From NCBI RefSeq assembly GCF_013705725.1, contig NZ_CP055481.1:3038001-3102000 (forward strand): a stretch of 64,000 nt of DNA. The letters run 5' to 3'. This DNA comes from Klebsiella sp. RHBSTW-00484 (lineage in GTDB: Bacteria; Pseudomonadota; Gammaproteobacteria; Enterobacterales; Enterobacteriaceae). How positions within the stretch are numbered: the first letter of the stretch is position 1; each line of letters starts with the position of its first letter. The notes under the pieces are model-generated. The model was given only the letters and a program-made list of their open reading frames with translations. It was not told the DNA's origin and did no database searches. Both the position numbers and the translations under genes were made by a program. Below are positions 29,705 through 41,933 of this stretch, one piece after another.

Positions 29705-30296
29705 TTTGTATGCCTCAATTTTGCGCTATCTCTGCGATGTTAACTTACCAGCCAGAAAAATAGAAATAAACGCTTTCACTGCAGGTTCATAGGATCAGGC
29801 AAAAAACAAAGAGTATTTTAATAACACATTTCTTCAGGGGCACCCAAAATAGCAATACTCAAATCAGACTCTGGCCCGGTATATATACGCCGATGTTGTG
29901 TCTGAATGAATCATGTATACCGTTTGAAAACAGCCCCTTTATCAACGAATGAAAGGTTTCAATATCATGACAATAAAATCTTCAAAGCGCTTTTTCAATA
30001 GCGCACTCCTCGCGGGAGCACTGTCCATGATTTCTACAGAATCTGCGCTCGCCCAGCCTGTGTCCGGCACATCAGACCCTTCGGTACGTCTGGTTCAGAC
30101 GTGGGATAAAACCTTCTCAAGGAGTGACAAAGTGGAGCATCAAAAAGTGACGTTTAAAAACCGTTACGGCATGACGCTAGCCGCAGATGTGTATCTTCCT
30201 AAAGATCGCGGCAACAAGAAACTTGCTGCTATTGTTCTTTCGGGGCCTTTCGGTGCGGTAAAAGAGCAGGCCTCTGGCCTTTACGCTCAAACGCTA

Positions 30297-31449
30297 AATA
30301 GATGCGCGGAATAGTAGATCACTGAAAGGGAACTCAGCCCGGATTGTGCGATCTGATCAATCGCCAAACCAACCAAAACCACCAACCGGACTGAGCGATG
30401 CCGATCATAGCACCAATACCCCGTGGCGAACGACGCCTGATGCAGAAAGCTATTCATAAAACGCGCGATAAAAATCATGCCCGCAGACTCACGGCCATGC
30501 TGATGCTTCATCGGGGTGAACGGGTCAGCGATGTTGCCAGAACTCTCTGTTGTGCTCGTTCATCCGTTGGTCGCTGGATTAACTGGTTTACGCACTCAGG
30601 TATTGAAGGCCTGAAATCCTTACCCGCAGGGCGCTCCCGACGCTGGCCTTTTGAACATATCTGCACCCTGTTACGTGAGCTGATAAAGCATTCTCCCGGC
30701 GATTTTGGTTATCAACGTTCACGCTGGAGCACCGAATTACTGGCAATAAAAATCAATGAGATAACCGGTTGCCAGTTACATGCAGGAACCGTTCGCCGCT
30801 GGTTGCCATCTGCGGGGCTTGTATGGCGCAGGGCCGCGCCAACTCTGCGTATCCGTGACCCACATAAAGATGAAAAGATGGCGGTAATCCACAAAGCGCT
30901 GGATGAATGCAGCGCAGAGCATCCGGTATTTTATGAAGATGAAGTGGATATCCACCTTAATCCTAAAATCGGTGCGGACTGGCAGTTGCGCGGACAGCAG
31001 AAACGGGTAGTGACGCCGGGGCAGAACGAAAAATACTATCTGGCCGGCGCACTGCACAGTGGCACGGGTAAAGTCAGCTACGTGGGCGGCAACAGCAAAA
31101 GTTCAGCGCTGTTTATCGCTCTGCTGAAGCACCTGAAAGCCACTTACCGGCGGGCGAAAACAATCACGCTGATCGTTGATAACTACATTATCCATAAAAG
31201 CCGCGAAACACAGCGCTGGTTGAAAGCAAATCCCAAGTTCAGGGTAATTTACCAGCCGGTTTACTCGCCGTGGGTGAATCATGTGGAACGGCTATGGCAG
31301 GCACTTCATGACACGATAACCCGTAATCATCAGTGCCGCTCAATGTGGCAGTTACTGAAAAAGGTCCGCCATTTTATGGAAACCGCCAGCCCATTCCCCG
31401 GAGGAAAACATGGTCAGGCAAAAGTGTAGCGGTATTAGGCGCAGCTATT
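30297..31449 (+). mobile_element. IS630, complete copy (1153 bp)
   Basis: The ends AATAGATGCGCGGAATA and (reverse) AATAGCTGCGCCTAATA are matching inverted repeats. The length of 1153 bp equals that of IS630 as I remember it. The element lies between two TA dinucleotides (30295-30296 and 31450-31451), the hallmark of IS630 insertion. It splits the alpha/beta hydrolase gene. Confidence 0.95.
30398..31429 (+). CDS. IS630 transposase
   Basis: The protein has 343 residues. N-terminal helix-turn-helix motifs (ERVSDVARTLCCARSSVGRWI) precede a Tc1/mariner-like DDE domain: FYEDEVDIHLNPKIG (first D), TLIVDNYIIHKS (second D) and YSPWVNHVERLWQALH (E). The reading frame and element ends are intact. Confidence 0.95.
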   Translation: MPIIAPIPRGERRLMQKAIHKTRDKNHARRLTAMLMLHRGERVSDVARTLCCARSSVGRWINWFTHSGIEGLKSLPAGRSRRWPFEHICTLLRELIKHSPGDFGYQRSRWSTELLAIKINEITGCQLHAGTVRRWLPSAGLVWRRAAPTLRIRDPHKDEKMAVIHKALDECSAEHPVFYEDEVDIHLNPKIGADWQLRGQQKRVVTPGQNEKYYLAGALHSGTGKVSYVGGNSKSSALFIALLKHLKATYRRAKTITLIVDNYIIHKSRETQRWLKANPKFRVIYQPVYSPWVNHVERLWQALHDTITRNHQCRSMWQLLKKVRHFMETASPFPGGKHGQAKV

Positions 31450-32243
31450 TAGCCGAGCGCGGATTCGTGACGCTGGCTTTTGATCCGTCTTACACCGGGG
31501 AAAGCAGTGGGGAACCACGCAATATTGCCTCTCCTGATATTAATACCGAGGACTTTATGGCCGCGGTCGATTTCATTGGATTGCAACCTTATGTCGATCG
31601 TGAGCGCATCGGTGTCATCGGTATTTGTGGCATGGGTGGTATTGCACTGAACGCCGTTGCAGTTGATAAACGCGTCAAAGCCGTTGTTGCGAGCACCATG
31701 TATGACATGAGCCGGGTTATGTCCAAAGGCTACAATGACAGCGTAACCCCGGAGCAACGCGAGCAGGCGCTTGAGAAGCTGAGTCTTCAGCGCTGGGACG
31801 ATGCGGCAAACGGTGAACCTGCCTATCAACCCCCTTACAACAAACTGAAAGGCGGTGAAGCGCAGTTCCTCGTGGAATATGCGGACTACTATATGACAAA
31901 GCGTGGATACCACCCGCGTGCGGTAAACTCAGGAAATTCATGGTCGGTAACAACCCCGATCTCCTTTATGAATTTCCCACTGATGACCTATATTAAGGAA
32001 ATTTCTCCACGTCCGGTCCTGTTTATCCATGGTGAAAAAGCACACTCGCTTTATTTCTCCAAAACGGCCTATGAAGCGGCAAATCAGCCAAAAGAGCTTT
32101 TGATTGTCAAAGATGCTACACATGTTGATTTGTATGATCGGATGGATAAAATTCCGTTCAACGACATCGCAGCATTCTTTAATAAGAATCTTAATAAATA
32201 AGTAATAACAGACCCAGCGCAGCCAGGTCATCAAGGTCTAAAT

Positions 32244-33504: not shown

Positions 33505-33532
33505 ATTTAACATAATATACATTATGCGCACT
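33505..33532 (-). other. dif: Chromosome dimer resolution site dif (XerC/XerD target)
   Basis: Read on the minus strand, the site consists of XerC arm AGTGCGCATAA, centre TGTATA and XerD arm TTATGTTAAAT. From memory, E. coli dif differs only at the first base of the XerC arm. XerC and XerD bind the two arms and resolve chromosome dimers under FtsK control at the septum. The XerC arm faces the ISNCY array, whose first element begins exactly 5 bases away. Confidence 0.93.
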
Positions 33533-33537
33533 GAGGC
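33533..33537. repeat. GAGGC direct repeat, first of four copies bordering the ISNCY array
   Basis: The same 5 bases occur at 33533-33537 (between dif and copy 1), 35816-35820, 38099-38103 and 40086-40090, that is, at every junction of the array. They are best read as 5-bp target duplications made by successive insertions at the same phosphodiester position beside dif. Confidence 0.9.
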
Positions 33538-33634
33538 TGTAATGGCTCAATAGTAATGTCCGCCTGTGGCTCAATTCAGATGTCCGCGCTATGGTAAGCT
33601 TCACTGGTCCGTTTAAACTACCGGGAGGCATATC

Positions 33635-35038
33635 ATGAGCGCAGAAAGCTCAGGAGTGTTTACTTTGAAAGAGATCAACCGGATCAAGATTATACAGGAC
33701 GTCATTGAACGTCGCATCACAACGCGCCGTGCGGCCGAGCACCTCGGTATCAGCGACAGGCAATGCCGCAGACTTCTTGCCCGTTACCGTGAAGGCGGAC
33801 CGCTTGGTATGGCCAGCAGACGATGTGGCATGCGTGGTAACCGCCAGTTGCCACCCGGGCTCGCAGATCAGGCTCTGGAACTGATCAAGACGCGTTATGC
33901 TGATTTCGGTCCGACTCTGGCGCGTGAAAAGCTCGAAGAACTCCACGGACTGTTTCTTGGCAAAGAAACTGTCCGGCGCATCATGGTGCGGGCTGGCTTA
34001 TGGGTTCCCCGTAAACAACGTGCCGCAAGGATCCCTCAACCACGGTACCGGCGTCCGTGTACTGGTGAGCTGATACAAATAGATGGCTGTGATCACGACT
34101 GGTTTGAAGGCCGTGGCCCGGCCTGCACCGCGCTGGTCTATGTTGATGATGCAACCAGCAAACTGATGGAACTGTTGTTTGTTAAATCGGAGTCCACGTT
34201 TTCTTACTTCGAAGCCACGCGGCGCTATATCGATAAGCATGGTAAACCGCTGGCACTGTACAGCGATAAAGCCGGTGTTTTTCGTGTTAACAATAAACAC
34301 GCCACAGGCGGAGACGGGCATACTCAGTTTGGGCGAGCCATGCATGAACTGAACATCCAGACTATCTGTGCAGAAACCAGTCCCGCCAAAGGGCGTGTAG
34401 AACGAGCTCACCTCACTTTACAGGATCGTCTGGTCAAAGAGCTGCGGTTACAGGGCATTTGTTCAATGGAGGCTGCAAATGACTTCGCTGAGGCCTATAT
34501 GGCTGACTATAACCGCCGTTTTGGCAAAGTACCGCGACATGATTTTGACGTACACCGTGCTGTAGAACATGATGAGGACCTGGGGCTTATTTTCACTGTT
34601 CGTGAAAAACGTAAAGTCTCAAAATCGTTGACGATACAATATGATAAAATGTTGTACCTGATTGAAGACAGCGAACTGAGTCGCCGTGCAATAGGTAAAT
34701 ATATCGATGTGTATCACTATCCTGATGGCAGAAAAGAGCTGCGCCTGAACGGTACGCTACTTCCCTACTCTACCTACGACCGACTGTCAGAAATCGACCA
34801 GGGCGCGATTGTCGATAACAAGCGTCTTGGCCGAACCCTGGAGTTTATCAGTCTGGTGCAGAGCAAGCGGGATAACACGCGCTCTCAGTCAATTCCCGCT
34901 GGAGATGGCCCTTCCCGACGACGGCCAAAGCAGGAAGGGAAGAAATCCCAGCGCTCACTGGATAATGATGACATGCTCGAAGCACTCAAACAGCTTCAGT
35001 CACGTTCAGAGGACATTTTTGGTAAAAGAGCCCGCTGA
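33635..35038 (+). CDS. ISNCY-family transposase, copy 1
   Basis: The protein has 467 residues. N-terminal helix-turn-helix regions (ITTRRAAEHLGISDRQCRRLL; GKETVRRIMVRAGLW) precede a DDE integrase core: GELIQIDGCDHDWFEG (first D), ALYSDKAGVFR (second D) and SPAKGRVERAHLTLQDRL (E). The C-terminal domain includes KSLTIQYDKMLYLIED. The encoded protein is identical to that of copy 2. GGGAGG precedes the ATG. Confidence 0.95.
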   Translation: MSAESSGVFTLKEINRIKIIQDVIERRITTRRAAEHLGISDRQCRRLLARYREGGPLGMASRRCGMRGNRQLPPGLADQALELIKTRYADFGPTLAREKLEELHGLFLGKETVRRIMVRAGLWVPRKQRAARIPQPRYRRPCTGELIQIDGCDHDWFEGRGPACTALVYVDDATSKLMELLFVKSESTFSYFEATRRYIDKHGKPLALYSDKAGVFRVNNKHATGGDGHTQFGRAMHELNIQTICAETSPAKGRVERAHLTLQDRLVKELRLQGICSMEAANDFAEAYMADYNRRFGKVPRHDFDVHRAVEHDEDLGLIFTVREKRKVSKSLTIQYDKMLYLIEDSELSRRAIGKYIDVYHYPDGRKELRLNGTLLPYSTYDRLSEIDQGAIVDNKRLGRTLEFISLVQSKRDNTRSQSIPAGDGPSRRRPKQEGKKSQRSLDNDDMLEALKQLQSRSEDIFGKRAR

Positions 35039-35066
35039 TGGTACTCACTGGCCGGACAGTGGTTGC

Positions 35067-35699
35067 TCACCAGTTGATATTGTCCGGCCAGACCCATGAT
35101 GTATTATTCATTTCGTTCAGCATCTTTATGTCCTGCTTTTCACGGGCATACTTACCCCATAATGAATGAAAAGAACGAACAATACTGATTAACTGCTTTT
35201 TTCTTTGCTCCGGAGATAGGCTGATAAAATAGCAGCACCTGCTGTCAATATTATCCTCAATGAAATTAAAATCAGAGTCTGATGCATATTTTACTGTTAG
35301 CATAATATCATTCGACGTTGTTCTCTCAGACTCTGTTAATGCTGATTCTATCAGGTATTCAAAGGCATACATGACAGACAGCTGGTTTTTGTCTGTCTGA
35401 ATATAACCCATTGAGTTTCTGAGTATTGAGGACTGTACCAGGACCAGAGGCCATAAAAGCTCAACACCATAAAGCTTATATGTATCATGTTGATCATACT
35501 GATGTTGCTCAACACGACGATTACCTTCCCGTGCTTTACGAATATCATAGGCAAGGGATAACATAAATCCGTCTTTAACTTTAATCAGTGGGCTTTCATC
35601 CACGATGTAATGAATGAGTTCATGTAATTCATTCAGGGCTTCTGAATCTCCCCACAGTATAAAACCTGCATTGTTCGGCGTTAACTCGTATCGAAGCAT
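35067..35699 (-). CDS. Cargo protein of the ISNCY element (DUF6904-like), copy 1
   Basis: The protein has 210 residues from MLRYELTPN; an in-frame ATG four codons upstream is also possible. The N-terminus (GFILWGDSEALNELHELIHYI) resembles the DUF6904 family of unknown function. There are no membrane spans or catalytic motifs that I recognise. It is convergent to the transposase and lies inside the inverted repeats, so it moves with the element. Its base composition is lower in GC than the transposase, suggesting a separate origin. Confidence 0.72.
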   Translation of the reverse strand: MLRYELTPNNAGFILWGDSEALNELHELIHYIVDESPLIKVKDGFMLSLAYDIRKAREGNRRVEQHQYDQHDTYKLYGVELLWPLVLVQSSILRNSMGYIQTDKNQLSVMYAFEYLIESALTESERTTSNDIMLTVKYASDSDFNFIEDNIDSRCCYFISLSPEQRKKQLISIVRSFHSLWGKYAREKQDIKMLNEMNNTSWVWPDNINW

Positions 35700-35917
35700 G
35701 GGCTCAATCATCCTGTTGTTTCAGTCGGAGGAAAGTCTATCAGTAAAGAGAATGAGAGATCAAAGTGGTCATTTTAATTGAGCTGGATAACGGACATTTC
35801 AATTGAGCCTTGACAGAGGCTGTAATGGCTCAATAGTAATGTCCGCCTGTGGCTCAATTCAGATGTCCGCGCTATGGTAAGCTTCACTGGTCCGTTTAAA
35901 CTACCGGGAGGCATATC

Positions 35918-37321
35918 ATGAGCGCAGAAAGCTCAGGAGTGTTTACTTTGAAAGAGATCAACCGGATCAAGATTATACAGGACGTCATTGAACGTCGCAT
36001 CACAACGCGCCGTGCGGCCGAGCACCTCGGTATCAGCGACAGGCAATGCCGCAGACTTCTTGCCCGTTACCGTGAAGGCGGACCGCTTGGTATGGCCAGC
36101 AGACGATGTGGCATGCGTGGTAACCGCCAGTTGCCACCCGGGCTCGCAGATCAGGCTCTGGAACTGATCAAGACGCGTTATGCTGATTTCGGTCCGACTC
36201 TGGCGCGTGAAAAGCTCGAAGAACTCCACGGACTGTTTCTTGGCAAAGAAACTGTCCGGCGCATCATGGTGCGGGCTGGCTTATGGGTTCCCCGTAAACA
36301 ACGTGCCGCAAGGATCCCTCAACCACGGTACCGGCGTCCGTGTACTGGTGAGCTGATACAAATAGATGGCTGTGATCACGACTGGTTTGAAGGCCGTGGC
36401 CCGGCCTGCACCGCGCTGGTCTATGTTGATGATGCAACCAGCAAACTGATGGAACTGTTGTTTGTTAAATCGGAGTCCACGTTTTCTTACTTCGAAGCCA
36501 CGCGGCGCTATATCGATAAGCATGGTAAACCGCTGGCACTGTACAGCGATAAAGCCGGTGTTTTTCGTGTTAACAATAAACACGCCACAGGCGGAGACGG
36601 GCATACTCAGTTTGGGCGAGCCATGCATGAACTGAACATCCAGACTATCTGTGCAGAAACCAGTCCCGCCAAAGGGCGTGTAGAACGAGCTCACCTCACT
36701 TTACAGGATCGTCTGGTCAAAGAGCTGCGGTTACAGGGCATTTGTTCAATGGAGGCTGCAAATGACTTCGCTGAGGCCTATATGGCTGACTATAACCGCC
36801 GTTTTGGCAAAGTACCGCGACATGATTTTGACGTACACCGTGCTGTAGAACATGATGAGGACCTGGGGCTTATTTTCACTGTTCGTGAAAAACGTAAAGT
36901 CTCAAAATCGTTGACGATACAATATGATAAAATGTTGTACCTGATTGAAGACAGCGAACTGAGTCGCCGTGCAATAGGTAAATATATCGATGTGTATCAC
37001 TATCCTGATGGCAGAAAAGAGCTGCGCCTGAACGGTACGCTACTTCCCTACTCTACCTACGACCGACTGTCAGAAATCGACCAGGGCGCGATTGTCGATA
37101 ACAAGCGTCTTGGCCGAACCCTGGAGTTTATCAGTCTGGTGCAGAGCAAGCGGGATAACACGCGCTCTCAGTCAATTCCCGCTGGAGATGGCCCTTCCCG
37201 ACGACGGCCAAAGCAGGAAGGGAAGAAATCCCAGCGCTCACTGGATAATGATGACATGCTCGAAGCACTCAAACAGCTTCAGTCACGTTCAGAGGACATT
37301 TTTGGTAAAAGAGCCCGCTGA
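35918..37321 (+). CDS. ISNCY-family transposase, copy 2
   Basis: This 467-residue DDE transposase has the same protein sequence as the one at 33635-35038, including all three catalytic residues and the ribosome-binding site. Both copies are therefore potentially active and also form a 2.3-kb direct repeat for homologous recombination. Confidence 0.95.
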   Translation: MSAESSGVFTLKEINRIKIIQDVIERRITTRRAAEHLGISDRQCRRLLARYREGGPLGMASRRCGMRGNRQLPPGLADQALELIKTRYADFGPTLAREKLEELHGLFLGKETVRRIMVRAGLWVPRKQRAARIPQPRYRRPCTGELIQIDGCDHDWFEGRGPACTALVYVDDATSKLMELLFVKSESTFSYFEATRRYIDKHGKPLALYSDKAGVFRVNNKHATGGDGHTQFGRAMHELNIQTICAETSPAKGRVERAHLTLQDRLVKELRLQGICSMEAANDFAEAYMADYNRRFGKVPRHDFDVHRAVEHDEDLGLIFTVREKRKVSKSLTIQYDKMLYLIEDSELSRRAIGKYIDVYHYPDGRKELRLNGTLLPYSTYDRLSEIDQGAIVDNKRLGRTLEFISLVQSKRDNTRSQSIPAGDGPSRRRPKQEGKKSQRSLDNDDMLEALKQLQSRSEDIFGKRAR

Positions 37322-37349
37322 TGGTACTCACTGGCCGGACAGTGGTTGC

Positions 37350-37982
37350 TCACCAGTTGATATTGTCCGGCCAGACCCATGATGTATTATTCATTTCGTT
37401 CAGCATCTTTATGTCCTGCTTTTCACGGGCATACTTACCCCATAATGAATGAAAAGAACGAACAATACTGATTAACTGCTTTTTTCTTTGCTCCGGAGAT
37501 AGGCTGATAAAATAGCAGCACCTGCTGTCAATATTATCCTCAATGAAATTAAAATCAGAGTCTGATGCATATTTTACTGTTAGCATAATATCATTCGACG
37601 TTGTTCTCTCAGACTCTGTTAATGCTGATTCTATCAGGTATTCAAAGGCATACATGACAGACAGCTGGTTTTTGTCTGTCTGAATATAACCCATTGAGTT
37701 TCTGAGTATTGAGGACTGTACCAGGACCAGAGGCCATAAAAGCTCAACACCATAAAGCTTATATGTATCATGTTGATCATACTGATGTTGCTCAACACGA
37801 CGATTACCTTCCCGTGCTTTACGAATATCATAGGCAAGGGATAACATAAATCCGTCTTTAACTTTAATCAGTGGGCTTTCATCCACGATGTAATGAATGA
37901 GTTCATGTAATTCATTCAGGGCTTCTGAATCTCCCCACAGTATAAAACCTGCATTGTTCGGCGTTAACTCGTATCGAAGCAT
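37350..37982 (-). CDS. Cargo protein of the ISNCY element (DUF6904-like), copy 2
   Basis: This is identical to the cargo gene of copy 1 (210 residues from MLRYELTPN). Its frame is intact in both copies, which is mild evidence that it is expressed or useful to the element rather than debris. The function is unknown. Confidence 0.72.
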   Translation of the reverse strand: MLRYELTPNNAGFILWGDSEALNELHELIHYIVDESPLIKVKDGFMLSLAYDIRKAREGNRRVEQHQYDQHDTYKLYGVELLWPLVLVQSSILRNSMGYIQTDKNQLSVMYAFEYLIESALTESERTTSNDIMLTVKYASDSDFNFIEDNIDSRCCYFISLSPEQRKKQLISIVRSFHSLWGKYAREKQDIKMLNEMNNTSWVWPDNINW

Positions 37983-38195
37983 GGGCTCAATCATCCTGTT
38001 GTTTCAGTCGGAGGAAAGTCTATCAGTAAAGAGAATGAGAGATCAAAGTGGTCATTTTAATTGAGCTGGATAACGGACATTTCAATTGAGCCTTGACAGA
38101 GGCTGTCAGCACAAAGCGTTATTGTCGTCTCAGCACAATTCACACGCGTCGTGTACGCTAAGCCTTCATTTTGCTCAGCACAGGACCGCGATCTT

Positions 38196-39554
38196 ATGTT
38201 GGTGACTATGACAGACAAAGAACTTTACCGGCTTGGCATCATTCAGCGAGTATTTGACCGGGCTTTGCTTCAGCGCGACGCAGCAGACATACTTAAGCTC
38301 AGTGTTCGTCAGGTGCAGCGTCTTGTGCGTCTGTACCGGACAGATGGCGCAACCGCATTTGCATCTTCCCGCCGTGGACGTCCTGCAAACAACCGGATCG
38401 ATGAAGAAACACGCTGTAAAGCCCTGGATTTGATCCGGTGCCACTATTCAGATTTTGGCCCAACGCTCGCAACCGAAAAACTGGCTGAACGCCATCATAT
38501 ATATCTCTCTGTTGAAACCATCCGTAACTGGATGACAGCCGACGGTCTCTGGCGTCCTCATTCCCGCCGGCGAACCCGGGTTTACCAGCCGCGCTATCGT
38601 CGCGACTGTTTCGGCGAACTGGTTCAGATCGATGGCTCTCACCATGACTGGTTCGAAGGAAGAGCCCCAAAATGCTGTCTTCTGGTCTTCATGGATGACG
38701 CCACAGGTCGCCTGATGCACCTGCGATTCTGTGATTCAGAAAACGCGTTTGACTACATGATGGCTACCCGGCAATACATTGATAAACATGGTAAACCTGT
38801 CGCATTTTACAGCGACAAGCATGCGGTGTTCAGGGTCAGCGGACCCGAAAGCCGACGTACCGGCACAACCCAGTTCGGACGGGCTCTCCGGGAACTGGCG
38901 ATCGAATTGATTTGTGCCAACAGCAGCCAGGCAAAAGGTCGCGTGGAACGGGTAAATAAAACGCTCCAGGATCGACTGATTAAAGAGATGCGCCTGCAGA
39001 ACATCAGCTCGGTTGCTGAAGCCAATCAGTGGATTGAACATTTCATGTCTGATTTTAACCGTCGTTTCTCCCGGCCGGCAAAATACCCTAAAGATCTGCA
39101 CCGTGCGGTCACACAGAGTCCACTGGAGCTGAATGATATCTTCGCCTGGCAGGAGCTACGGACCTTATCGAAAGCACTGACTTTTCAGTATGATAAAGTC
39201 ATGTATATCATTGAACCCACCGAACAAAATACGCGCATAGCAGGTGAAAAAATTACCGTTTATGATTACCCTGACGGAAGCATTACTTTCCGGCATCAGC
39301 ACCGGCCACTGGGTTATAAGATTTTCGATAAACTGACCTGCGTTGATCAGGGGGCGGTTGTTGATAACAAACGACTGGGTGCCGTTCTGAGGCTGGCACA
39401 GCAGAAACAGGACGAGCTGGAGGCTGAAGGAAAGCGAATGCGCAGTACAAAAATGCCCCGCAGGCGCGCTCAGGAGCGTGCACTGGAAGAGCTCAGGGCG
39501 ATCAACCCGGTGCTGGCCAGTCCGCAGGATTTTATCCCCAGCCTGAAGCGATGA
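38196..39554 (+). CDS. ISNCY-family transposase (second type)
   Basis: The protein has 452 residues from MLVTMTDKEL; a start 15 codons upstream is possible but lacks support. Helix-turn-helix RDAADILKLSVRQVQRLVRLY is followed by the DDE core: GELVQIDGSHHDWFEG, AFYSDKHAVFR and SQAKGRVERVNKTLQDRL. It has the same domain plan as the ISKpn21-like transposase but is clearly diverged in sequence. Confidence 0.93.
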   Translation: MLVTMTDKELYRLGIIQRVFDRALLQRDAADILKLSVRQVQRLVRLYRTDGATAFASSRRGRPANNRIDEETRCKALDLIRCHYSDFGPTLATEKLAERHHIYLSVETIRNWMTADGLWRPHSRRRTRVYQPRYRRDCFGELVQIDGSHHDWFEGRAPKCCLLVFMDDATGRLMHLRFCDSENAFDYMMATRQYIDKHGKPVAFYSDKHAVFRVSGPESRRTGTTQFGRALRELAIELICANSSQAKGRVERVNKTLQDRLIKEMRLQNISSVAEANQWIEHFMSDFNRRFSRPAKYPKDLHRAVTQSPLELNDIFAWQELRTLSKALTFQYDKVMYIIEPTEQNTRIAGEKITVYDYPDGSITFRHQHRPLGYKIFDKLTCVDQGAVVDNKRLGAVLRLAQQKQDELEAEGKRMRSTKMPRRRAQERALEELRAINPVLASPQDFIPSLKR

Positions 39555-39602
39555 GCCCTTCCCTCACCTGCGGATCTGATATGGCCGACAGATGAGAGAA
39601 AA

Positions 39603-39998
39603 ATGGACGACAACAAACCAGTGCTCCTGACACTTCACGAAGCGCTACGCCTGGATTTGATTGAAGCCTATATGGCGCGGGAAATCACGCTGGCAGAAGT
39701 GGCAGAGTCCATGGAGCTCACCCGTCGTCAGTGCTCCCGCCTGATTAAGCGCTATCGCGAGCTGGGGCCAGCCGGTCTGGTCAGCCGGCGCCGTGGAAAG
39801 CCCGGCAATCATCAGTTAAACACCACCATCAGAGATCAGGCACTGCAGCTTATTCGCTCACGCGGCCGGGGTATGAATCCGTCAGCCATCTGGCGAATTC
39901 TGATCACAGAATACGGTGTCCGGATTTCAAAAGAGACCGTACGTAAACTGATGATAGCCGAGAAAACCTGGCAACCACGTTCTTCCTCCAAAGCCTGA
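39603..39998 (+). CDS. Stand-alone helix-turn-helix protein related to the ISNCY transposase N-terminus
   Basis: The protein has 131 residues. LAEVAESMELTRRQCSRLIKRYRELGP and VRISKETVRKLMIAEKTWQPR match the DNA-binding part of the ISKpn21-like transposase (RRAAEHLGISDRQCRRLL; GKETVRRIMVRAGLWVPR), but the DDE domain is absent. GAGAGAAAA precedes the ATG. It lies inside the second-type element. It could be a transposition regulator or the relic of another transposase; the clean start, stop and length favour a real gene. Confidence 0.7.
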   Translation: MDDNKPVLLTLHEALRLDLIEAYMAREITLAEVAESMELTRRQCSRLIKRYRELGPAGLVSRRRGKPGNHQLNTTIRDQALQLIRSRGRGMNPSAIWRILITEYGVRISKETVRKLMIAEKTWQPRSSSKA

Positions 39999-40090
39999 CT
40001 CAACCTTAAAAAGGCATTGTCCAGACTCTCCACTGACGTCAGGTCAGCTTTGTTTTCAGCACGACATTTCAACATTGGCTAGACAGAGGC

Positions 40091-40231
40091 TGTAGAGGCT
40101 CAATGCTAATGTCTATTTGTGGCTCATTGAATGTCCAGGCTATAGTTTTCAAACCTGTATGTCTGGTCAACGACTCACTTTTCCTGATGAGGAGTTTTCT
40201 ATGGCTATACATGACGCCGGGATGTTCACCG
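40091..40231 (+). mobile_element. Left-end stub of a fourth ISNCY-family element
   Basis: Directly after the fourth GAGGC, the sequence TGTAGAGGCTCAATGCTAATG resembles the left end of the ISKpn21-like copies. It contains the first 11 codons of a transposase (GAGGAG, then ATG at 40201; MAIHDAGMFTV, compare MSAESSGVFTL). It is cut at 40231 by the IS3-family element, and the rest is missing. Confidence 0.8.
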
Positions 40232-40249
40232 TGAATCGCCACGGATAAT

Positions 40250-41062
40250 CTAGACACTTCCGAGCCGTTGATAATACTGGTTTTCATATTCTGTCGGTGA
40301 CATCTGTTCGCTAGAACCATGCCGACGCTTACTGTTATAAAACATTTCGATGTAATCAAAAATATCACTGCGGGCTTCTTCCCGCGTTCCGTAGATCTTT
40401 TTCTTTATCCGTTCGCGTTTCAACAACTGGAAAAAGCTTTCTGCAACCGCATTATCATGGCAGTTACCGCGACGGCTCATGCTGCCTTCCAGGCCGTGTG
40501 ATTTCAGGAACGACTGCCACTCATGGCTTGTGTACTGACTGCCCTGATCCGAATGAACCAGCACCTGTTTTTGGGGATTACGCCGCCATACAGCCATCAG
40601 CAGTGCGTTCAGGACAATGTCCTTTGTCATCCGGGATTGCATGGACCAGCCGATAATTTTGCGTGAGAACAGATCAACAACCACGGCAAGATACAGCCAG
40701 CCTTCGTGGGTCCTGATGTAGGTTATGTCCGTTACCCAACGCTCATCCGGAGCATCCGGATTGAACTGTCGCTGGAGCCTGTTGGGCGACACGATACTGG
40801 CCTCGCCTTTACGTGCCCGCGGGCTCCGGTATCCGACCTGAGCCTTTATCCCGACACGTTTCATCAGTCGCCAGACCCTGTTCACTCCGCACTGTTGCCC
40901 GCTGTCACGCAGATCCAGATGGATTTTGCGATAACCATAGACGCATCCCGATTCCAGCCAGAACTGTTTAATCTGTCCTGTCAGTCTCAGGTCTGCCTGA
41001 TGGCGTTGTGAATGCGGCTGCTGAAGCCAGGCGTAAAAACCACTGGGATGAACATCCAGCAC
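40250..41062 (-). CDS. IS3-family transposase OrfB (catalytic part)
   Basis: The visible ATG-to-stop part has 270 residues; the true protein begins further upstream through a -1 frameshift from orfA. It has a helix-turn-helix-like N-terminus and an rve DDE core: DERWVTDITYIRT, VLVHSDQGSQYTS and GNCHDNAVAESFFQLLKRE. A run of seven A residues near the end of orfA (about 41152-41158, minus strand) is a likely slippery site producing the OrfAB fusion. Confidence 0.94.
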   Translation of the reverse strand: MLDVHPSGFYAWLQQPHSQRHQADLRLTGQIKQFWLESGCVYGYRKIHLDLRDSGQQCGVNRVWRLMKRVGIKAQVGYRSPRARKGEASIVSPNRLQRQFNPDAPDERWVTDITYIRTHEGWLYLAVVVDLFSRKIIGWSMQSRMTKDIVLNALLMAVWRRNPQKQVLVHSDQGSQYTSHEWQSFLKSHGLEGSMSRRGNCHDNAVAESFFQLLKRERIKKKIYGTREEARSDIFDYIEMFYNSKRRHGSSEQMSPTEYENQYYQRLGSV

Positions 41063-41118
41063 CCGACAGAGCAGGCGAACAGGCCAGCAACAGGTGTTGT
41101 CACGGATAAAGGCGTACC

Positions 41119-41403
41119 TCAGTCGGACAGCTTTGCGAAGTACGCCGCGGCTTTTTTTAATATGTCCCGTTCGTCGGTAACCCGCTTCAGCTCTTTCTGG
41201 AGACGGCGGATCTCGGCCTGAGCATCTGACTGTTCTTTATTTGTGGAAGAATCCGGACCGTACTTCTTTATCCAGGCGTAAAGGCTGTGGGTGGTGATAT
41301 CGAGACGTGTTGCAACGCTGGCAACAGAATAACCGCGATCAACAACCTGTTTGACTGCTTCAGTTTTAAACTCTTCGGGATAACGCTTACCGCTCATGGG
41401 CAC
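41119..41403 (-). CDS. IS3-family OrfA (DNA-binding part)
   Basis: The protein has 94 residues. Helix-turn-helix YSVASVATRLDITTHSLYAWI is followed by a leucine-zipper-like stretch (IRRLQKELKRVTDERDIL). OrfA binds the element ends, and with OrfB it forms the transposase by programmed frameshifting. Confidence 0.94.
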   Translation of the reverse strand: MPMSGKRYPEEFKTEAVKQVVDRGYSVASVATRLDITTHSLYAWIKKYGPDSSTNKEQSDAQAEIRRLQKELKRVTDERDILKKAAAYFAKLSD

Positions 41404-41441
41404 CTCTCTTTAAGCCATCTTAAATGACTCTAAGGTGTCTG

Positions 41442-41933
41442 TTAAACCCGTGGCGATTCATATGCATCCATCTTGCATGCATAGAACCAGACATATTCAG
41501 AGCCAAACATCATCAACCCATCGCGAACTTTCCTGGCCCTGAAATTACGGGACTCACCCGGTTCGATACCGAAAATATAGTTGCTCAATGGCTCAGGTGA
41601 CTGATCCTTGAACATTCGCTGGACTGACTGCAGTTTTGCCTCAAAAAGCTCGTTATAAAAATGGTTATATTGGTAGTTTCCTTGCTGATATATCTTTTTC
41701 TGCGACCCATCCGCATGATGGTAGAAACCTTTGACTATCATGCTGGCTTTCTGTTTTTGAATGTTAATTTTTACCCACAGGTCCATGTACTCGCCGGGTT
41801 TCATATGGATCTTCTGCTGGCCGCTACAGGAGTATTTGTCGCTATCGTTGTTAAAAAATGCCATAGCCACAAGCAATATTGCCAGAACCACAGTCACGGC
41901 GACGATAGGCTTGAACATTTTATTATTTATCAT
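41442..41933 (-). pseudogene. FidL-like inner-membrane protein, 3' end cut by the IS3-family element
   Basis: The frame starts at MINNKMFKP (GGGGGGAG before the ATG; an earlier start is rejected). One N-terminal span (IVAVTVVLAILLVAMAFF) anchors a periplasmic domain. The last residues (ESPRV) come from the IS end, so the native C-terminus is missing from about residue 158 on. It overlaps the upstream ToxR-like regulator gene by 11 bases. Similar pairs include MarT-FidL and YqeI-YqeJ. Confidence 0.7.

Follow-up and report, generated by a model that had tools for sequence, protein, structure and literature searches.

According to Harmer, Pong & Hall 2023 (PMC10132070), insertion sequences (IS) of the IS1202 family, ISKpn21 included, insert 5 bp from dif and dif-like (pdif) sites, insertion at the chromosomal dif was shown in Acinetobacter, and a contact of the transposase with XerC bound at dif was proposed. 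The same study refers to three family members with one extra open reading frame (ORF) and lists ISKpn21 in Table 8, in one case next to a site identical in its 28 bases to the one treated below. Here, we describe a stack of four elements of this family, two of them annotated as ISKpn21, directly beside the chromosomal dif site of Klebsiella sp. RHBSTW-00484, dif being the place at which sister chromosomes are separated. The stack lies in a stretch of 64,000 nucleotides (NCBI RefSeq assembly GCF_013705725.1, contig NZ_CP055481.1, positions 3,038,001 to 3,102,000 of the forward strand), and this whole stretch is called the window. With a probability of about 0.84 the four elements were inserted successively 5 bp outside the XerC arm of dif, the newest one on the dif side, stacking under the mechanism proposed below. 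The closest described group is the ISAjo2 sub-group, whose counterpart is said to be the ISAba32 subgroup of Siguier et al. 2023 (Plasmid 127:102696). With the ISAjo2 sub-group the stacked elements share the transposase family, the TGT/ACA ends, the 5-bp duplication, the distance from the XerC arm and the orientation (PMC10132070). The available text of that paper describes single insertions and has no match for the word “tandem”, whereas the stack with its repeated spacer, its order, the frequency at Klebsiella dif sites and the multi-gene cargo stem from the present analysis. No description of stacking or its order was found in the accessible portions of the literature searched (PMC10132070, PMC13141974, PMC12907356, PMC5034289, PMC11724359, PMC11705084). 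What appears to be new is the stacking and its order; the 5-bp targeting of dif and pdif, which an earlier sequence-only reading of the window mentioned for plasmid-borne elements, was already published for the family (PMC10132070).

The dif/pdif modules of Acinetobacter plasmids likewise use Xer sites on plasmids and chromosomes, but they are moved by XerCD between paired sites, whereas the stack elements are moved by a transposase at one dif. The layout of such modules, a segment between two inversely oriented Xer sites, was not found: a dif pattern allowing up to 3 mismatches, which strongly divergent XerC arms would escape, gave one match on the chromosome contig and no inverse second site. 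Another relative in terms of behavior is Tn7, which duplicates 5 bp of its target and exhibits target immunity. Elements of the IS1202 family resemble Tn7 in having a single target site and, in some members, cargo, but differ from it by repeated insertion at one site. Tn7 also has a TnsB-like transposase with TGT/ACA ends, as found in the IS1202 family (PMC10132070). Genes of the TnsA, TnsC or TnsD type are missing among the ORFs examined in elements 1–3 (the transposase and either the DUF6904 or the helix-turn-helix (HTH) ORF), and none is listed in the annotation of the arsenic-resistance and Thoeris elements described further below.

The site beside the stack (Table 1) reads ATTTAACATAATATACATTATGCGCACT (reverse complement AGTGCGCATAATGTATATTATGTTAAAT), which is exactly the Enterobacterales-type dif with its XerC arm on the right. 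A pattern search with this arm pattern gave one exact match in the 6.94-Mb assembly (28 contigs), at 3.07 Mb of the 6.33-Mb contig, and two sites with up to 3 mismatches on the other contigs C2 and C4, each adjoining ISKpn21 (contig numbers C and locus numbers L are our own). GC skew was calculated for 20 sampled 20-kb stretches, the stretch containing dif being set aside; it is positive in 11/11 stretches upstream and negative in 8/9 downstream, the remaining one being +0.002. KOPS (FtsK-orienting polar sequences, the octamers guiding FtsK), counted with what we take to be their consensus, change strand at the same point, with 20 plus/2 minus before dif and 0/9 after. This dif site lies at the replication terminus. 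The claim that the 28-mer is the chromosome's own dif is upheld in this way, and the skew does switch there, with the correction that on this strand the cumulative skew has its maximum at this place and not the minimum that had been expected.

All elements of the stack have one orientation, the first one starts exactly 5 bases from an intact dif, and GAGGC is present at all four junctions. A chance origin of these repeats is excluded because three further identical pentamers each sit exactly between two IS ends, and the outermost copy was lost because an IS3-family element truncates element 4. The four copies agree with the target duplication of 3–6 bp that is typical of the IS1202 family, as does the position of the left end, 5–6 bp from the XerC arm in a single orientation. 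The large DDE transposase matches NCBIfam NF033594 (E 6.4e-149 and 1.4e-147), and in an alignment of four sequences D150, D211, E256 and Q263 are invariant, Q following seven residues after E; the catalytic residues are presumably among them. Elements 1–3 are bounded by imperfect terminal inverted repeats TGT...ACA, and the left end of element 1 includes a second GGCTCAATTCAGATGTCC block. The name ISKpn21 for elements 1 and 2 was taken from the record annotation. Element 3 is likely an isoform of ISKpn65, because its length, transposase size and second ORF resemble the entry in Table 7 of PMC10132070 (1980 bp, 452-aa transposase); it is covered to at least 80% in 558 of 1,333 matching plasmid records, the 30 listed ones being at 99.8%. 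A regulatory role is conceivable for the second ORF of element 3, whose product resembles the DNA-binding N-terminus of the transposase. Four ISNCY-type elements in one orientation with GAGGC at each junction were correctly described in the sequence-only reading; the outermost is only a stump. The window geometry together with the published family behavior (PMC10132070) agrees with its choice of the chromosomal dif as target, 5 bp from the XerC arm and in fixed orientation.

Table 1. Features of the dif region of the window, and of the arsenic transposon at two other loci.
Feature	Position	Strand	Remarks
Chromosomal dif	33505..33532	-	by sequence; sole exact match in genome; terminus by skew and KOPS
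dif, XerD arm	33505-33515
dif, spacer	33516-33521
dif, XerC arm	33522-33532		XerC side toward stack
GAGGC	33533..33537	.	target site copy adjoining dif
Element 1, ISKpn21	33538..35815	+	2278 bp; ends TGT...ACA
Element 1 transposase	33635..35038	+	467 aa; NCBIfam NF033594 ISNCY_2
Element 1 passenger gene	35067..35711	-	DUF6904 (PF21845, E 8.1e-48)
GAGGC	35816..35820	.	junction
Element 2, ISKpn21	35821..38098	+	2278 bp; identical to element 1
Element 2 transposase	35918..37321	+
Element 2 passenger gene	37350..37994	-	DUF6904; sequence same as in element 1
GAGGC	38099..38103	.	junction
Element 3, IS1202 family	38104..40085	+	1982 bp; likely ISKpn65 isoform
Element 3 transposase	38151..39554	+	467 aa from GTG (452 aa from internal ATG)
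Element 3 second ORF	39603..39998	+	131 aa; resembles only the transposase N-terminal HTH part (profile 2-112 of 368)
GAGGC	40086..40090	.	junction
Element 4, IS1202 family	40091..40231	+	141-bp left-end stump; 95-97% to left ends in L051 and L213
IS3-family element cutting element 4	40232..41460	-	ends 40232-40269 / 41423-41460
KOPS octamer	34909..34916	-	pointing at dif
KOPS octamer	37192-37199	-	pointing at dif
KOPS octamer	39556-39563	-	pointing at dif
Arsenic transposon, L018	8110-15297	-
Arsenic transposon, L046	2083-9270

Under the mechanism that we propose, the DDE transposase would recognise dif, most probably with XerC and XerD bound to it, and would join the element left end first at a fixed distance of 5–6 bp, thereby duplicating those bases. 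Because the 28-bp dif and its 5-bp neighbour would stay intact, the target would be rebuilt after each insertion and every newcomer would land between dif and the previous element. Tandem identical copies suggest that target immunity is lacking, so that layers could pile up, whereas the distal ones would decay and be cut by other elements. The same process would operate at dif-like sites of large plasmids, including layers with arsenic-resistance or Thoeris cargo. That large plasmids are targeted as well would be explained by the reported presence of an active, FtsK-controlled XerCD site on all enterobacterial replicons >250 kb (PMC11724359).

The order of arrival can be followed at three plasmid sites that occur with n and n+1 layers. 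At the IncHI1 site (11 of 56 records with this site were read, the strain's own plasmid and L223 counted) L216 is empty, while L214 (5-bp spacer) and L218 (6-bp spacer) hold just the arsenic transposon. In L212 and the own plasmid C2 this transposon is accompanied by one ISKpn21, in L134 by two. A sister site contains a Thoeris element alone (L217) or with a 3.0-kb element in front of it (L213), and an IncHI2 site ISKpn21 alone (L129) or with element 3 in front (L222). In each of the three cases it is the dif side of the resident that bears the additional layer; the less layered state is assumed to be the older one, the alternative being a clean loss of the dif-side layer. Element 3 and ISKpn21 are found in both orders, which fits because arrival time would predict this. 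An empty chromosomal site is available from E. coli, where the joined flanks dif-AATAT-native are covered to at least 80% in 129/5,426 genomes (the 8 listed ones at 100% over all 193 bases), and the same site holds three ISKpn21 copies in L043. A search for empty sites, which the sequence-only reading had recommended, was thus successful at this E. coli site and at the IncHI1 site but gave no empty dif-GAGGC among the 19 genus genomes, for which reason the order within the window array is one that we infer.

A scan of 84,980 species genomes with the four-protein alignment yielded at least 592 stretches, at least 551 of them confirmed, and the best 80 loci were kept. In dif-headed stacks, 16/16 informative adjacent pairs combine an intact copy on the dif side with a decayed distal copy, and 0 show the reverse (two-sided sign test 3e-5). 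This count has an inherent detection bias, as a junction is recognised by the right end of the dif-side copy, so that a decayed copy at this place could escape. Counted were pairs of one intact and one broken transposase, pairs of equal state, contig ends and headless stacks being excluded, and “broken” stands in 10/16 for a left end only, the adjoining sequence (up to 2.6 kb) giving no match to a transposase. A milder alternative for this gradient is that deletions near dif are simply not tolerated. The claim that the newest copy stands next to dif is nevertheless carried by the gradient, with its bias, and by the three layered plasmid series, even if the identical elements 1 and 2 could stem from recombination.

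No score was obtained for 16 of the 80 loci (no left end found, or contig edge). Among the 64 scorable ones a dif-like site lies 4–6 bp from the left end in 56 (gap 5 in 46, 6 in 9, 4 in 1), two abut another family right end instead, and six (L060, L077, L098, L099, L118, L119) have neither, L099 and L119 scoring 11, just under the cut of 12; this scoring accepts three XerD-arm variants that were chosen after the target sequences had been viewed, and in the control the score 12 was reached in 0/4,481 windows. The six and L095, where the dif-side piece runs into the contig start, could conceal decayed dif-side copies. Insertion without an Xer-like site, which had been named as evidence against the targeting of dif, therefore concerns these six loci, two of them near the threshold. 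It is very improbable that newcomers are drawn by the ends of resident family elements, on either side, and not by dif: a spacer copy is expected on both sides of a resident and identical junctions fit insertion on either side, yet the best-matching copy was found at a dif-like site 56 times versus 2 beside another element, the extra layer is on the dif side in 3/3 layered pairs, and decay rises away from dif in all 16 detectable informative pairs. Somewhat better founded, though still the less probable version, is that the transposase reads the dif DNA itself, without Xer proteins. At the DNA level the scored targets do have the XerD arm and the inner XerC arm in common, but the outer XerC arm and the 5-bp spacer seem (by eye) most variable, which would better fit a distance measured from the bound complex.

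The detection bias and the six loci without target speak against the successive insertion of elements 1–4, and so do several other observations. Identical spacers give no order, because insertion on either side of a resident leaves them, and the empty dif-GAGGC site is missing in the genus. In the 80-locus set, 21 dif-headed loci continue immediately after the first right end with another family left end; the spacer at this first junction is the same as that beside dif in 17 loci (4 to 6 bases compared) and differs in L085, L086 (one base), L096 and L120. Further discordant spacers occur in own plasmid C4, L132, L219 (ISKpn21 in front of a Thoeris-element relative) and at the second junctions of L070, L223 and L076 (one base). 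Moreover, the identical elements 1 and 2 could be a RecA duplication, giving the same unit. We consider it unlikely that the whole array grew in this manner by homologous recombination (unequal crossing-over or exchange with plasmid stacks) and not by repeated insertion. A duplication of element 1 would bring along one spacer copy, and the discordant L132, L219, L223, L070 and C4 suggest stacks that recombine, yet elements 2, 3 and 4 are mutually different and have the same spacer, and each extra layer at the three plasmid sites is a distinct element that brings its own copy of the spacer. Successive insertion is thus the preferred explanation of the window array. Tandem arrangements of ISKpn21 are not confined to it: the ISKpn21–ISKpn21 junction (205-bp query, covered to at least 80%) is present in 73 plasmid records (of 1,335 with any match) and in 3 E. 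coli records (of 62 with any match), including strain 2022CK-00450 with three tandem copies at its chromosomal dif. Five plasmids with tandem ISKpn21 were read: the spacers agree in L130, L131, L133 and L134 (TATAA, then TATAAA in the last) but not in L132. A junction in L051 was dropped as spurious.

The window genome encodes five identical ISKpn21 transposase genes, two in the stack and one each on C2, C4 and C6, besides other relatives, and the latter three ISKpn21 copies all lie 5 bp from a dif-like site. Behind ISKpn21 on C2 a second family member follows with the same spacer TATAA, and on C6 GTGTT occurs on both sides. On C4 (L020) ISKpn21 is flanked by TGAGT on the left and AATAC on the right, before another family end, a mismatch that points to recombination between stacks. 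In E. coli, ISKpn21-like DNA is present in 52/5,426 genomes; with a query of dif plus left end, 19/21 chromosome rows align through the 28-bp site, among the matches listed (60 of 72 records). Six of those 21 were read (L043, L044, L224-L227), and in each of them a distance of 5 or 6 bp separates the element from the site. The neighbour is hipA in five cases and an integrated filamentous-phage-like region in L044; L226 has a differing XerD arm, next to phage genes. BLAST matches without full dif alignment were considered as off-target insertions and rejected as such: each of the five copies read, which represent three distinct sites, has a dif-like XerD arm at its side and a distance of 5 bp from the site, or of 6 bp in L125 with its poor XerC arm. 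In two further copies (L210, L211) the left end is missing beside an annotated ISKpn38. As a separate observation, the same sequence TAAGGATGGCAGAATCTGG... is located right of dif in two species of Klebsiella, in one other genus and in a strain of E. coli (L140, L152, L174, L044), where it borders zot-like phage genes. It probably represents a filamentous prophage that was integrated by Xer and uses dif together with the transposons.

How frequently chromosomal dif sites are occupied was first surveyed across the order with a strict pattern, which found 2/394 genomes, the window genome being one. This pattern demands an intact end (TGT, TGTC letters) and a fixed-pattern XerC arm and misses relics, so it was replaced by a scored survey, in which a matrix derived from 45 distinct left ends among the 80 loci was placed at exactly +5 relative to dif. 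The genus set comprises 19 of 20 genomes with the exact dif 27-mer, the window included; in the family set 129 genomes were searched, 39 had the 27-mer and 37 were scored after removal of two genus members, the 90 genomes without an exact 27-mer being outside the set. A family end or relic is found at +5 in 13/19 species dif sites of the genus, several as decayed relics, and in 9/37 dif sites of other genera of the family, the cut being a null fraction of at most 2.1e-4 of 98,856 neighbouring scored windows; matrix training and test may overlap, as test locus L192 resembles training locus L049. A matrix trained without Enterobacterales (36 ends) gave 12/19 and 7/37 at the same cut, and 13 and 9 at 1e-3. 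None of the 56 sites passes at other offsets from dif (13 tried). The same matrix was applied to two ISKpn65 target rows designated “degenerate” in PMC10132070 (CP001630, MK552108); calculated from the printed letters they score as family left ends (18.5 and 26.1, the highest of the 98,856 null scores being 18.5) and may be more simply read as stack neighbours, on one side or the other of ISKpn65. A 33-base search for these odd rows in the plasmid collection gave no match. At unoccupied dif sites of many genera (L156-L192) the XerC side shows, by eye, a recurring motif about 10 bp out (GAATCTGGC.TTT-like).

ISKpn21 and element 3 have one KOPS octamer each, pointing at dif. The 34 whole elements from the 80-locus set contain 18 octamers toward dif and 0 away, spread over 17 elements, the other 17 having none, and a reversed control motif gave 4 and 1; in nine enterobacterial elements the numbers are 7 toward and 0 away, against an expectation of 2.0 for each strand. 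Among 73 distinct transposase genes, 27 octamers point toward dif (5.4 expected by codon shuffling), while octamers pointing away are not significantly depleted (3 versus 6.3 expected in all unique genes, 2 versus 3.1 in 43 representatives); kinship among the genes is only partly removed in these statistics. Of the 27, 21 occupy one conserved Leu-Pro position (family alignment column 377), at which strongly conserved synonymous codons give rise to the octamer; the window octamers of ISKpn21 and element 3 lie outside it. At this position, CCC is used for Pro in 42/54, compared with 31/140 for Pro before T elsewhere (column 285 also excluded), and for this reason the Pro-before-T context fails to explain it. 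Column 285, CCC-rich too (36/54) and without KOPS, weighs against selection for KOPS; the polarity is no more than suggestive of a selected adaptation.

Some family members are cargo transposons. The second element on C2 has 7,188 bp and is identical over its full length to elements in L212, L214 and L046 (Escherichia sp. ESNIH1 draft contig). According to the annotation of L212 and L214 it encodes a transposase, arsH, a transcriptional regulator, an arsenic transporter, arsC, a universal stress protein and a SulP transporter. The C2 copy is flanked by TATAA left and right. In L046 the element adjoins a site with the exact chromosomal dif sequence; it lies there between two GAGGT and precedes an older relic. 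The copies of L018, L046 and L214 are each enclosed by identical 5-bp spacers. A 3,927-bp element contains Thoeris ThsA (PADLOC E 1.5e-122) and ThsB (7.9e-74) and is present as a tandem pair at a dif-like plasmid site in L215 and as a single copy (99.9%) in both L217 and L213. In L219 the candidate defence helicase PDC-S28 follows behind a family transposase. No mention of such multi-gene cargo (ars, Thoeris) in the IS1202 family was found in the accessible portions of the literature searched. On the other side of dif, at window positions 29949-32201, a hydrolase-like reading frame is seemingly interrupted by a 343-aa transposase-like ORF (30398-31429).

Taken more broadly, there are about even odds that chromosomal and megaplasmid dif sites are standing landing pads for dif-homing, self-sufficient Tn7-like transposons, whose time-ordered and cargo-bearing stacks, with KOPS that point at dif and spare the segregation machinery, may be read as stratigraphic records of arrival. 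A known target preference would thereby become a predictable process, in which an essential single-copy site, rebuilt at each insertion, would collect elements in the order of their arrival. This would give relative dates for the arrival of elements in plasmids and chromosomes, would explain apparent off-target copies and would mark where defence and metal-resistance cargo settles next. It also raises the question of how dif functions with kilobases of foreign DNA 5 bp from XerC, and of how far the elements are adapted to this place, as their KOPS polarity may indicate.

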